Origin: Gemmatimonadota bacterium
GTDB taxonomy: Bacteria; JAAXHH01
Length of the DNA: 40,554 bases
Direction: 5' to 3'
NCBI GenBank assembly: GCA_026702745.1
Contig: JAPPBT010000056.1
Coordinates: 1 to 40,554, forward strand
In this document: piece by piece, positions 34,069-37,727 of the stretch
Position numbering within the stretch: the stretch's first letter is position 1
How the letters are laid out: every line of letters starts with the position of its first letter
Notes under the pieces: generated by a model
The model's database searches: none
Seen by the model: the letters and a program-made list of their open reading frames with translations, nothing else
Told to the model about the DNA's origin: nothing
Translations under genes and position numbers: made by a program

Positions 34069-35019
34069 ATGAAATCAGGTGTTCCCGCCGCCCGCCCCAT
34101 ACCGGTTCTCGTGGGTCCCACCGGCGTGGGAAAGACTGCCGTAGGTATTGAGCTGGCCCGGCGCTTCGGCGCGGAGATCATCTCGGCGGATTCCCGCCAG
34201 ATCTACCGGTACATGGATATCGGCACGGCCAAACCCACCGCGGATGAACGGACCGCGGCCCCCCATCACCTCATCGACGTCGTCGATCCGGACGTGCGGT
34301 TCAGCGCCGGCGAATACGGCCGCCTGGCCCGGGAAGCGATCCATGAGCTTGCGGCCAGGGATGTGCCGGCTCTCGTAGTCGGCGGCGCGGGGCTCTACAT
34401 CAAGGCGCTTGACGGCGGACTGTTCGACGCGCCGGAGATCCCGCCGGCGGTCAGGCAACGGCTGGCGAACGAATACCGATCAGCGTCCACCGCCGCGCTC
34501 CATGGACGGTTGAGTGCAATCGATCCGCCTTCGGCCGCGCGTATCCACGCGAACGACCGGCAGCGTATCGAAAGGGCGCTGGAGGTCCACGACGCGACAG
34601 GCGCGACCCTGACTTCCTGGTTCGAAAGCCCTGAACCATCCCGATCCCAAGGGACGCGTCTGATAGGGATGCGTCGCGACCGCGCCGCACTCTATGGGCG
34701 TATCGACGCCAGGGTCGAGATAATGATCGAATCCGGCCTCGAATCGGAGGTCCGCGCCTTGTCGGACCGGGGGTATGGTCCCGAAGCCCACGCCATGTCG
34801 ACGTTCGGTTATGCGGAAATGTTGCGGTATACCGGGGGCGAACTGGAATTGGAAGATGCGGTTTCGGCCATTCAGCAGCGGTCCAGGCAGTATGCAAAGC
34901 GCCAGTTGACCTGGTTCAGGCAAACCGGGGACGTCGAATGGGTCACCGTGGAGGAAGGGGAAGATCCGGCCGACACCTGCGAGGAGATCATCCGGTCCTT
35001 CCCGGATCTTCTATTTTAG
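34069..35019 (+). CDS. miaA: tRNA dimethylallyltransferase
   Basis: Adds a dimethylallyl group to N6 of A37 in tRNAs that read UNN codons. Landmarks are the P-loop GPTGVGKT at 16-23, SADSRQIYRYMDIGTAKPT (the DMAPP/tRNA region) at 39-57, APHHLIDVVDPD, VVGGAGLYIKAL, and the RIHANDRQRIERALEV segment. The C-terminal region ends RQLTWFRQ. The 316 residues are normal. I use the ATG at 34069. A GTG at 34054 overlapping the deacetylase stop (GTGA) is an equally reasonable start and would be translationally coupled. The 3' end overlaps the convergent metalloprotease gene by 9 bp. Confidence 0.96.
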   Translation: MKSGVPAARPIPVLVGPTGVGKTAVGIELARRFGAEIISADSRQIYRYMDIGTAKPTADERTAAPHHLIDVVDPDVRFSAGEYGRLAREAIHELAARDVPALVVGGAGLYIKALDGGLFDAPEIPPAVRQRLANEYRSASTAALHGRLSAIDPPSAARIHANDRQRIERALEVHDATGATLTSWFESPEPSRSQGTRLIGMRRDRAALYGRIDARVEIMIESGLESEVRALSDRGYGPEAHAMSTFGYAEMLRYTGGELELEDAVSAIQQRSRQYAKRQLTWFRQTGDVEWVTVEEGEDPADTCEEIIRSFPDLLF

Positions 35020-36828
35020 AAACAGCAGCTTGCGCGTTACTTCGGAACGTTCTGCCGCCCCCCCGGTCGTCATCCGGCACAGATAGACCCCGCTGGCCAC
35101 CCCTCTTCCCCCATCGTCTTTGCCGTCCCACGTGGTGGTGAACGTGCCTTCAGCATGGATGCCGTCCACCAGCGTGCGGACCTTCCGACCCATGACATTG
35201 TACAGCGTGAGTTGAACCTCCCCCGGCAGGCCGACTTCGTACCTTACGGTGGCGGGACCGCTGCTCAGGTAGAAGGGATTCGGATACGTGGTGAGGGACG
35301 CGGCGATCGGCCGCCCAGTCTCGTCATCGCCCGTAAGACCGGGATCATAGGCTGCCGTGTAAGCGTATTCGAAGCCGTCTCCGGTGCGATCGAGAGAAGC
35401 CACCACGAGCATGACGGTCTCGTACCGCGTCCAGTCGGGAACCTCGATGGTTACGCCTCCCCGGGTTGCCGGGACCGTCATCACCGTGTCGACGTTGCCG
35501 CTGGCCGCCACGGAAACGCCCCACTCCCCGGTTATGCCCGTGAAATCGATGCGCAGCCCACCGTGAAGCGAGGGATCCGGGACAAAACGTATGTAGTTCG
35601 CGGCGAGGTGGTCCGGATACTGGAGGGCGGGAATCAGGGGACCGTCAAACCGGTACGTGTCCGATGGGTCCTGGCGATCGTGTTCGTGCAGACCATGCTG
35701 GCCACTCAGCTCGACCTGGGGCCAGGCGGCGCCTTCTTCATGGAACCGGTCCGCGTTGGCACGGTCCCCGGTGAAGACGTTCCACGTGGTGAATTCCTGG
35801 AAGGCGGATTTCAGATCGCTGCCGACACTGCGCAGTCCCCCGTCGATGGCGTCCAGCGCCCGGCTCGTTCCGGCCCGTTCCCAGATGTTGCGAATCAGGT
35901 CCCTGCCATGCCGCTTTTCAAGGTACAGCGGCCAGAGCACGCCCGCGTATTCATGCTCACCGTTCGCGGTATCGAGCGAAATCCATGGTTCCGTCAGGAA
36001 GCCGCTGAACGTAGGCAGGTAGGTCAGGTAATCGTCGACCTCGTCATAGACCTGCTCCTCCATCCACACGGCACTCTGTTCCAGCCAGAAAGCCTCTTCC
36101 CCCGCGTCGTAGCCGAACTGCACGGCGTGGAAGTACTCGTGGGCGACGGTGATCCGCAGCAGGTCCAGGGCCTTCTCCACCGTCCTCCGGGACTCGGCGT
36201 AATCGTTGTCCACGACGATGTACGAAGGAAGGGCCGCGCCGGTCGCGACCGCTTCCGGGCGGGTGTAGCCGCTGAACTGACTCGGGAGATCGGTAATATA
36301 TACGTCGTATAGCCCGTCCCCGCCATCGTCCGCATCCATCGCCACGTACCGATCGTGATGATCGTAGTCCACGGGCGGCGGACGGTAACCCAGTTCTTCC
36401 ACGATAACGCGGCGGGATTCATCCAGGAATACCGCGCAGTGCCGGACATATGCGGGAACGGTGCCGTCCGTTTCGTCTTCCAGTTCCGGCCAGCCCGCAC
36501 CGGGCCGGTCTTCCGTCGTGGTGACGTACCAGATCTTGAAGTGGCCACCGGGACTGACGTAGGATTCGGGCTCGGCGGTATAGGTATGACCGAGGTTGTT
36601 CGTGCGGTCCCCTTCGCCGGGTACGGTGGGCCGGCCCGGGCCGACCTGTTCGGGCCGGTGGGTCCTGGCGGCGAGTCCGCCCTCCGGAGGCTGGACGAAG
36701 GGATGGAGGTGCAGCGTGCCGCAAAGCGGCCTGGAAGGTTCCTGGGCTGATACGCCGGTGTGGGTGATCACGCCGGTGAGACAGGCCAGGATAAGACACT
36801 TGAAGAAAGCTATCGGCCTGGTGATCAG
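35011..36828 (-). CDS. Secreted MXAN_6640-like putative metalloprotease with C-terminal sorting-like domain; probable CTG start
   Basis: Putative exported zinc metalloprotease, 605 residues with the start chosen here. The zincin motif HEYFH (230-234) is followed by WLEQSAVWMEEQ, whose glutamates could give the third ligand. The last ~90 residues, YPNPFYLSSGPATVRYEV through GVYLCRM and a basic end, are the FlgD-like/T9SS-type C-terminal domain common in FCB bacteria. A GTG at 36771 gives a protein without a signal. Nineteen codons upstream in the same frame, a CTG at 36828 gives ITRPIAFFKCLILACLTG and a cleavage site near VSA-QE, a textbook signal peptide. That CTG overlaps the TlpA stop as CTGA, with GGAGG ten bases before it. 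The start codon is inference. Confidence 0.85.
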   Translation of the reverse strand: MITRPIAFFKCLILACLTGVITHTGVSAQEPSRPLCGTLHLHPFVQPPEGGLAARTHRPEQVGPGRPTVPGEGDRTNNLGHTYTAEPESYVSPGGHFKIWYVTTTEDRPGAGWPELEDETDGTVPAYVRHCAVFLDESRRVIVEELGYRPPPVDYDHHDRYVAMDADDGGDGLYDVYITDLPSQFSGYTRPEAVATGAALPSYIVVDNDYAESRRTVEKALDLLRITVAHEYFHAVQFGYDAGEEAFWLEQSAVWMEEQVYDEVDDYLTYLPTFSGFLTEPWISLDTANGEHEYAGVLWPLYLEKRHGRDLIRNIWERAGTSRALDAIDGGLRSVGSDLKSAFQEFTTWNVFTGDRANADRFHEEGAAWPQVELSGQHGLHEHDRQDPSDTYRFDGPLIPALQYPDHLAANYIRFVPDPSLHGGLRIDFTGITGEWGVSVAASGNVDTVMTVPATRGGVTIEVPDWTRYETVMLVVASLDRTGDGFEYAYTAAYDPGLTGDDETGRPIAASLTTYPNPFYLSSGPATVRYEVGLPGEVQLTLYNVMGRKVRTLVDGIHAEGTFTTTWDGKDDGGRGVASGVYLCRMTTGGAAERSEVTRKLLFLK

Positions 36829-37616
36829 CTTCCTGTTGCCTCCTCGCGCAGGTGTTTAGGTGGTATGGGGAAGCGCTCCGCGTAGTGGGACAGGTCCTTG
36901 CCCGCGATCAGGTCTTCCAGGATATCGTCGTGCTTGTCCCAGTGCTGATCGTTGGGATGGACGTCCAGCTTGATGCGTCCCTCGCTGTCGATCAGGTAGG
37001 TGACGGGAATGCCGTAACGCTGGTTGGTCTTGGCACGGAACTGGCGTTCCCAGTAGCCGCGGAAATCGAAAAGGGAGGTCTGGCTGTTCATATAGTACGC
37101 GATGACGTCCTCGTTCCGCGCCGCGATCCCGGCCATTTTATCCGGATCGTTCTTCTCCGATTCGTCGGAAGGACGAACCAGCCTGGACGCCTGAAGTCCT
37201 TGCTTGAAGGTTTCCAGCCCGGGGCCGAATCCTTCCTCGAATTCCGCGGGATCGAGCGGTTGCTCATCCTTGTAGAATTTGTTCACGCCGACGAAGAGAA
37301 AGTCTATCCGTCCCTCGTACTTTTTCGCGATGTTCATCAGGGGTTCCGCATCCCTGATGCAGGGCGGGCACCACCAGGCCCAGAAGTTCACGAACAGGGG
37401 CCGGCCCCTGAAGTCCTCCAGGGTTACCTTCGTGCCATCCATGGTATACACTTCGAAGTTCGGCGCCGTATGGCCGATCTCGGTGCCGATCGTCCCGGTG
37501 CTGACGACCGTGGCTTCCTCCTCGACGGACGTACCACTGCATGCGATTCCGATCATACCTGCAAGCAGGCCCGACATCAGGAGCGTTCGATTCATTTCTT
37601 TCCATATGCGCCGCAT
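36825..37616 (-). CDS. TlpA-like thioredoxin-fold lipoprotein
   Basis: Extracytoplasmic thiol-disulfide oxidoreductase of the TlpA/ResA/peroxiredoxin-like group. A hydrophobic signal ends in the lipobox GIAC with Cys26 lipidated. The thioredoxin domain starts at APNFEVYTMDGTKVTL, the active site is WWCPPC (Cys83, Cys86), and the cis-proline segment is GIPVTYLID. An insertion of about 80 residues lies between the active site and the cis-proline. The ATG at 37616 has GAGG six bases upstream; the ATG at 37595 or GTG at 37628 are alternatives. The stop overlaps the start of the secreted metalloprotease, so the two are coupled, and TlpA may help the partner's disulfides. Confidence 0.9.
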   Translation of the reverse strand: MRRIWKEMNRTLLMSGLLAGMIGIACSGTSVEEEATVVSTGTIGTEIGHTAPNFEVYTMDGTKVTLEDFRGRPLFVNFWAWWCPPCIRDAEPLMNIAKKYEGRIDFLFVGVNKFYKDEQPLDPAEFEEGFGPGLETFKQGLQASRLVRPSDESEKNDPDKMAGIAARNEDVIAYYMNSQTSLFDFRGYWERQFRAKTNQRYGIPVTYLIDSEGRIKLDVHPNDQHWDKHDDILEDLIAGKDLSHYAERFPIPPKHLREEATGS

Positions 37617-37727
37617 ACATCGCCTCACTTTGGGATAAAGTAAGCGGAAGCCAGTCTAGATTGCTGAAATGTCGATGGTTCCCCATTAACTTCGGTATGT
37701 TTACCGGAATTGTCAACAACTATTTTA

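Follow-up and report, generated by a model that had tools for sequence, protein, structure and literature searches.

A probable CTG start codon at the stop codon of a TlpA-like gene in six related Gemmatimonadota genomes

Introduction

By the figures quoted from PMC11497404, CTG accounts for 0.024% of bacterial start codons and yields 0.86% of the output of AUG, and an extract of PMC5622118 gives two switches to CUG among 61,358 ancestral AUG starts. As for the overlap of adjacent genes, extracts of the literature describe NTGA as by far the commonest spacing (PMC12548453), write the 4-base overlap as (A|G|T)TGA (PMC3887535), and name ATGA and TGATG as overlaps (PMC6728339).

Here we analyze a stretch of 40,554 nucleotides from a Gemmatimonadota bacterium (contig JAPPBT010000056.1 of assembly GCA_026702745.1), hereafter the window, in which a metalloprotease gene lies directly behind a TlpA-like gene. 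The pair resembles the NTGA termination-reinitiation pairs, since both genes are on the same strand, the proposed start shares two bases with the TGA, and a Shine-Dalgarno (SD)-like motif is found inside the upstream gene, but it differs from the coupled pairs in that the protease start would be CTG and in that coupling would here be deduced from the sequence. Like the rare CTG starts in the extract of PMC5622118, the codon is a near-cognate start, but the protease would have switched by deletion of its start and not by point mutation, and the switch would be common to six species. The protein itself is similar to the MXAN_6640 family putative metalloprotease (NCBIfam NF045524), with a score above the cut-off (218.1 bits, cut-off 140) and an HExxH motif. 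The titles and abstract openings among the matches listed mention neither CTG starts within CTGA overlaps of this phylum nor an ATT start of SecD.

Results

Organization of the junction

The features of the locus are the following:

36825 to 37628, minus strand: upstream TlpA/ResA-like thioredoxin-fold gene, a lipoprotein as judged by eye, with an AhpC-TSA match
36856 to 36858, minus strand: TAA that bounds the protease frame on its upstream side; five of the six genomes with the junction have it at this position, and in G005 it is further upstream
36839 to 36845, minus strand: GAGGAGG, SD-like, coincident with two Glu codons of TlpA; duplex with the 16S tail of -11.6 kcal/mol in the window genome
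36826 to 36828, minus strand: CTG, proposed start codon of the protease, overlapping the TlpA stop (CTGA)
36823 to 36825, minus strand: ATC, codon 2 and alternative near-cognate start
36745 to 36828, minus strand: predicted signal peptide, codons 1-28, likely cut after VSA (by eye), matching the ATG-started signal peptides of five genus relatives
36769 to 36771, minus strand: GTG, default start in the preliminary description, found only in the window genome among the six
35011 to 36828, minus strand: metalloprotease coding sequence read from the CTG, 605 amino acids plus stop, MXAN_6640 family, with HExxH and matches to NF045524, DUF6055, and FlgD_ig
36127 to 36141, minus strand: HEYFH zinc-protease motif
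35056 to 35286, minus strand: C-terminal type IX secretion sorting-like domain (Por_Secre_tail, TIGR04183), overlapping FlgD_ig

The TlpA-like open reading frame ends as GGA AGC TGA, its stop occupying 36827-36825 of the minus strand, and the protease frame opens as CTG ATC ACC AGG within this stop, the two sharing the four bases CTGA. Upstream of the CTG there are nine sense codons in the protease frame and then the TAA at 36858-36856, and downstream no stop is found before the frame's own at 35011. Re-reading of the coordinates confirmed the layout given in the preliminary description, i.e., a CTG at 36828-36826 over the TlpA TGA, a frame open down to the GTG at 36771, a GGAGG (36843-36839) separated from the CTG by ten bases, and a stop as the next upstream codon of interest. 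The GTG at 36771-36769 is codon 20 of the protease and the first ATG, GTG, or TTG of its frame in the window.

Besides NF045524, the protease matches Pfam DUF6055 and FlgD_ig, each with 33.1 bits (cut-off 27). Its C-terminal domain scores 25.3 bits with TIGR04183, narrowly above the cut-off of 23 for a type IX sorting domain. C-terminal sorting domains of the type IX kind go with Sec export. The upstream gene matches AhpC-TSA with 49.1 bits (cut-off 26), and its matches to the NCBIfam TlpA and ResA models are under cut-off.

The codons between the CTG and the GTG complete the signal sequence MITRPIAFFKCLILACLTGVITHTGVSA|QEP, and the best 12-residue hydropathy window is 2.56 when the protein is read from the CTG vs. 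0.85 when it is read from the GTG. Hydropathy and homology agree on the signal-peptide regions, in which the cleavage site was placed by eye. Of the signal that a CTG start had been proposed to restore, the hydrophobic core and a likely cleavage site are seen; the n-region is weakly basic, with Arg4 followed by Lys10, and Arg4 is not universal, being replaced by Gly in two of the six CTG-type genomes. We infer that the protease product keeps the predicted Sec signal peptide and would be exported. The protease frame is -1 relative to TlpA, and a -1 frameshift ahead of the TGA could in principle yield a TlpA-protease fusion. We give this reading very little credit, since inspection of the zero-frame codons GGA AGC TGA did not find a slippery heptamer and the signal peptide of such a fusion would end up internal.

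Conservation of the CTG among related genomes

The search of the genus covered 12 genomes, all of which contain the protease; 11 of the matches reach the N-terminal region, and G006, with a contig that lacks the protease N terminus, was left out of the counts. All six genomes that share the junction carry CTG in the same overlap (G000, which is that of the window, G001, G009, G003, G005, and G002), and in none of them do the four bases contain ATG, GTG, or TTG. If the CTG is the start, it shares two bases with the upstream TGA on the same strand in 6/6. The occurrence of the CTG in six genomes makes a sequencing error turning ATG into CTG, which had been foreseen as an objection, very unlikely. 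On the protease tree the six fall together (support 60/68), as they do on the tree of protease plus TlpA (67/75), suggesting, with weak support, that they form a clade.

In the five CTG-type genomes other than that of the window, codon 20 is GCA or GCG, and thus the GTG at 36771 cannot be an inherited start; the homologues starting at this position that had been envisaged as a counter-case are not found among these five. Their signal region contains no ATG, GTG, or TTG. Counted from the CTG, the next canonical start is a GTG at a distance of 142 codons in G001, G003, and G002 and of 123 codons in G005; in G009 it is a TTG at 47 codons, beyond the signal peptide. No canonical start explains the conserved N terminus in five of the six genomes, and the sixth, that of the window, has its private GTG only. 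As this GTG is the sole canonical start of the region in the window genome, it might be taken as the start of a protein without signal peptide. Such a start is scarcely credible: the codon is absent from all five other CTG-type genomes, the signal peptide common to five ATG-started genus relatives would be cut, and the C-terminal sorting domain suggests that the protease is exported.

The protease is under purifying selection in the six genomes. Pairwise dN/dS ranges from 0.127 to 0.220 at dS of 0.190-0.308 (15 pairs), and the six comparisons with the ATG-started G007 give similar values (0.145-0.186). The frame is open in all six, with 602-605 codons counted from the CTG, and HExxH is intact in 11/11 genus homologues with an N terminus. 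Signal codons 2-29 are less constrained than the body of the protein (pooled pN/pS of 0.61), and they are hydrophobic and indel-free among the six. The loss of the ATG and the weak constraint on the signal region would also be expected if a deletion had silenced the gene and left the open frame as a remnant, but the six open frames, the dN/dS values, and the intact HExxH make this improbable.

Origin of the junction

In five relatives of the genus (G007, G010, G004, G008, and G011), an ATG precedes the hydrophobic stretch and cleavage site found in the six. In two more distant members of the family (G012 and G013), an ATG is followed by a distinct hydrophobic stretch. G010, G004, and G008 each have two or more in-frame ATGs at the protease N terminus, any of which may be the start used. 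Alignment of the N termini of the homologues, which had been recommended for finding an ATG or GTG at the same place, did reveal an ATG, but behind a spacer that is absent from the six.

The spacer was compared in four of the genus relatives, leaving out G011 (contig end) as well as G012 and G013 (no TlpA end matched). From the TlpA stop to a conserved Cys codon there are 177, 222, 224, and 229 bases in the four ATG-started relatives vs. 98 in each of the six, i.e., the stop is 79-131 bases further off in the former. The spacer of G007 is shorter than those of the other three, and six bases of the distance in G008 correspond to an insert in the mature part. In the alignment, the bases after the TlpA stop (GATCACC to CGAT) adjoin the signal-peptide TTCTTCAAG, spacer and ATG being absent in the six, with deletion breakpoints whose exact position is ambiguous. 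TlpA ends as AGC TGA in 10/10 genomes with this end read, and therefore the CTGA predates its service as a start; GAGGAG encodes Glu-Glu of TlpA in nine of these ten genomes. The TlpA TGA and the protease share a frame in G007 and G010, where no other in-frame stop interrupts the spacer.

These comparisons suggest that in the ancestor of the six species a spacer would have separated tlpA from a protease gene whose signal peptide began with ATG, and that a deletion would have taken the spacer and the ATG, so that the sequence for the hydrophobic portion of the signal was fused in frame with the nucleotides surrounding the TlpA stop. Deletion of the spacer and the old ATG is the most likely explanation of how the protease gene was left at the TlpA stop, and we infer, mainly from the shared junction, that it was one single event.

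Ribosome binding, coupling, and choice of the codon

The 16S 3' tail of G005 and G007 is GGATCACCTCCTTT. The GAGGAGG tract ahead of the overlap pairs with this tail at -11.6 to -12.5 kcal/mol in five of the six CTG genomes, and the altered tract of G003 is a weaker SD (-7.8 kcal/mol). At the ATG nearest the signal peptide the pairing is -1.7 in G007, G010, and G004, -3.8 in G008, and -6.5 in G011, and the other upstream ATGs of G010, G004, and G008 give -3.0 to -8.2. As these energies indicate, the deletion replaced a good codon, for the most part poorly served by its SD, with a poor codon that has a good SD and is placed at a stop codon. G003 has two 16S matches; the full-length one differs at the 3' end from G005 and G007, the partial one scores like the window genome's own, and one of the two may be a contaminant.

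The possibility that the GGAGG evolved for the protease was rejected, since it is TlpA coding sequence and is also found within TlpA in 4/4 ATG-started relatives with TlpA in view. The motif that had been advanced in support of the CTG is thus present, but it was inherited from TlpA and is weaker in G003. Because the GGAGG and the CTGA are older than the deletion, part of their conservation is due to TlpA.

Translation would begin with fMet at the CTG inside the CTGA, and the ribosomes would be those just finishing TlpA or those held by the GAGGAGG at its end. Reinitiation by the ribosome that terminates TlpA appears to be the likeliest route. The TlpA frame of G001 is interrupted by a stop 136 codons before its TGA, and simple coupling would therefore be blocked in this genome. 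The TlpA of G010 is split between frames, and the protease downstream stays open. Given the CTG output quoted above from PMC11497404, little protease is probably made unless coupling raises the yield.

A relaxed initiation machinery was also considered and set aside, as neither infC nor the initiator tRNA anticodon arm showed any sign of it in the 12 genus genomes. A match to infC over the cut-off was obtained in 12/12, split between contigs in two and with one stop inside the match in three. The sequence GGGCTCATAACCC, which we take to be the initiator tRNA anticodon arm motif, is present in 11 of the 12 (9/9 high-quality ones) and missing in G006, and a longer form of the motif occurs in 0/12, presumably because it fixes the next base pair. 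Folding of the mRNA at the start, predicted for nine of 11 genomes, did not differ clearly between CTG and ATG genomes, with values for the unpaired start codon of 0.19-0.47 in six CTG genomes and 0.06-0.59 in three ATG genomes.

Another near-cognate codon, ATC (36825-36823) or ATA (36813-36811), might be the start instead and would give a near-identical signal peptide. Both are conserved in 6/6, the ATC at codon 2 equaling the CTG in this respect, and the SecD-like and infC genes described below have ATT or ATC at their start positions. However, the GGAGG is 13 bases from the ATC and 25 from the ATA vs. 10 from the CTG, and a start at the ATA would lose Arg4 in the window. Although deserving more attention than frameshifting or a start at the GTG, this option is still unlikely, and the CTG itself, rather than the neighboring ATC, would be the codon used.

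Chance controls and survey of non-canonical starts

How often the geometry arises by chance was assessed on a 279-kb contig of G002, a sister species, from which 223 conserved genes were chosen. A C precedes 59 of the 119 TGA stops of these genes, and of the 22 conserved gene pairs in CTGA phase 10 read CTGA, eight of which have a canonical start within 20 codons. The CTGA geometry, which the preliminary description had likened to coupling overlaps, is there but lends weak support, half of the TGA stops following a C by chance, and we have rejected it as evidence for a CTG start. What is rare at this locus is the missing alternative start, not the overlap. Since the CTGA and the GGAGG are weak supports, the conclusion rests on the absence of another start.

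At least two homologues were available for 192 of the 223 genes in stretches of four other genomes. Genes with a first shared canonical start more than 25 codons inside the aligned region were flagged, a setting that misses near-cognate starts within 25 codons of a canonical one, and all 18 flagged genes were inspected by eye. The protease has the deepest first shared canonical start among the 192 groups (135 codons vs. 89 for the next). The flagged genes without a usable start are the protease, a SecD-like gene, and an arsC-like gene of G002; the remaining ones correspond to a usable start, a conserved non-coding frame, or misaligned homologues.

Other near-cognate start codons in the order

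In the SecD-like gene, which is outside the window, the start position is occupied by ATT or ATC in 14 of the 15 genomes of the order for which an N terminus was available, G013 not being among them. The gene matches Pfam SecDF_P1_head with 50.5 bits (cut-off 27) and NCBIfam secD with 138.2 bits, below the cut-off of 244.4. The codon, just before the first membrane helix, is split evenly among the 12 genomes of the genus, six showing ATT and the other six ATC; outside the genus, ATT is found in G012, which belongs to another genus, and in G014, from another family. An AAGGA- or GGAGG-type motif precedes each of these codons by 7-8 bases. In G015, an ATG occurs four codons further upstream. A start further upstream is ruled out by in-frame stops four codons before the ATT or ATC in G010 and G014. 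Against a near-cognate start, six of the 12 genus genomes have a GTG eight codons downstream of this position, and a TTG follows it by 15 codons in G012 and by 10 codons in G014; in the remaining six of the genus, the N-terminal codons read do not include a canonical start. Kept across two families, the near-cognate start of the SecD-like gene is possibly more notable than the CTG of the protease.

For infC, the likely start codon was read in three genomes (G010, G004, and G005) and is ATT in all of them. The residue at this position is Ile in 7/7 proteins read, with an in-frame Met ten codons downstream. The infC gene of Escherichia coli likewise starts with ATT. The arsC-like gene of G002 (contig C16, about 135103-135846) reads GCG GCG at the place of the GTG GTG start of G005; a candidate start is a CTG that follows an AAGGAG by eight bases, or the gene may be decaying (dN/dS of 0.44). 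The arsC-like homologue of the window has Met at the place matching the GCG GCG of G002.

It is tempting, but for the moment speculative, to propose that this lineage uses near-cognate starts on secretion-related genes (ATT or ATC of the SecD-like gene across two families, CTG of the protease) as stable, selected low-output or IF3-sensitive starts, with a strong SD or stop-codon coupling compensating for the codon.

Discussion

Taken together, the data favor, with fairly good confidence, that translation of the protease starts at the CTG after deletion of the ATG, that the product carries a Sec signal peptide, and that the GTG at 36771 is not the start.

The comparison of the locus before and after the deletion shows one route by which a CTG start can arise: a gene that has lost its original start to a deletion comes to lie at the stop codon of its neighbor, where an existing purine-rich tract can act as a ribosome-binding site. 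Gene finders that accept ATG, GTG, and TTG only would lose the signal peptide of this protease in all six species, and in four of them roughly the first fifth to quarter of the protein. The junction is, in addition, a natural test of the extent to which stop-codon coupling can rescue a very weak start.
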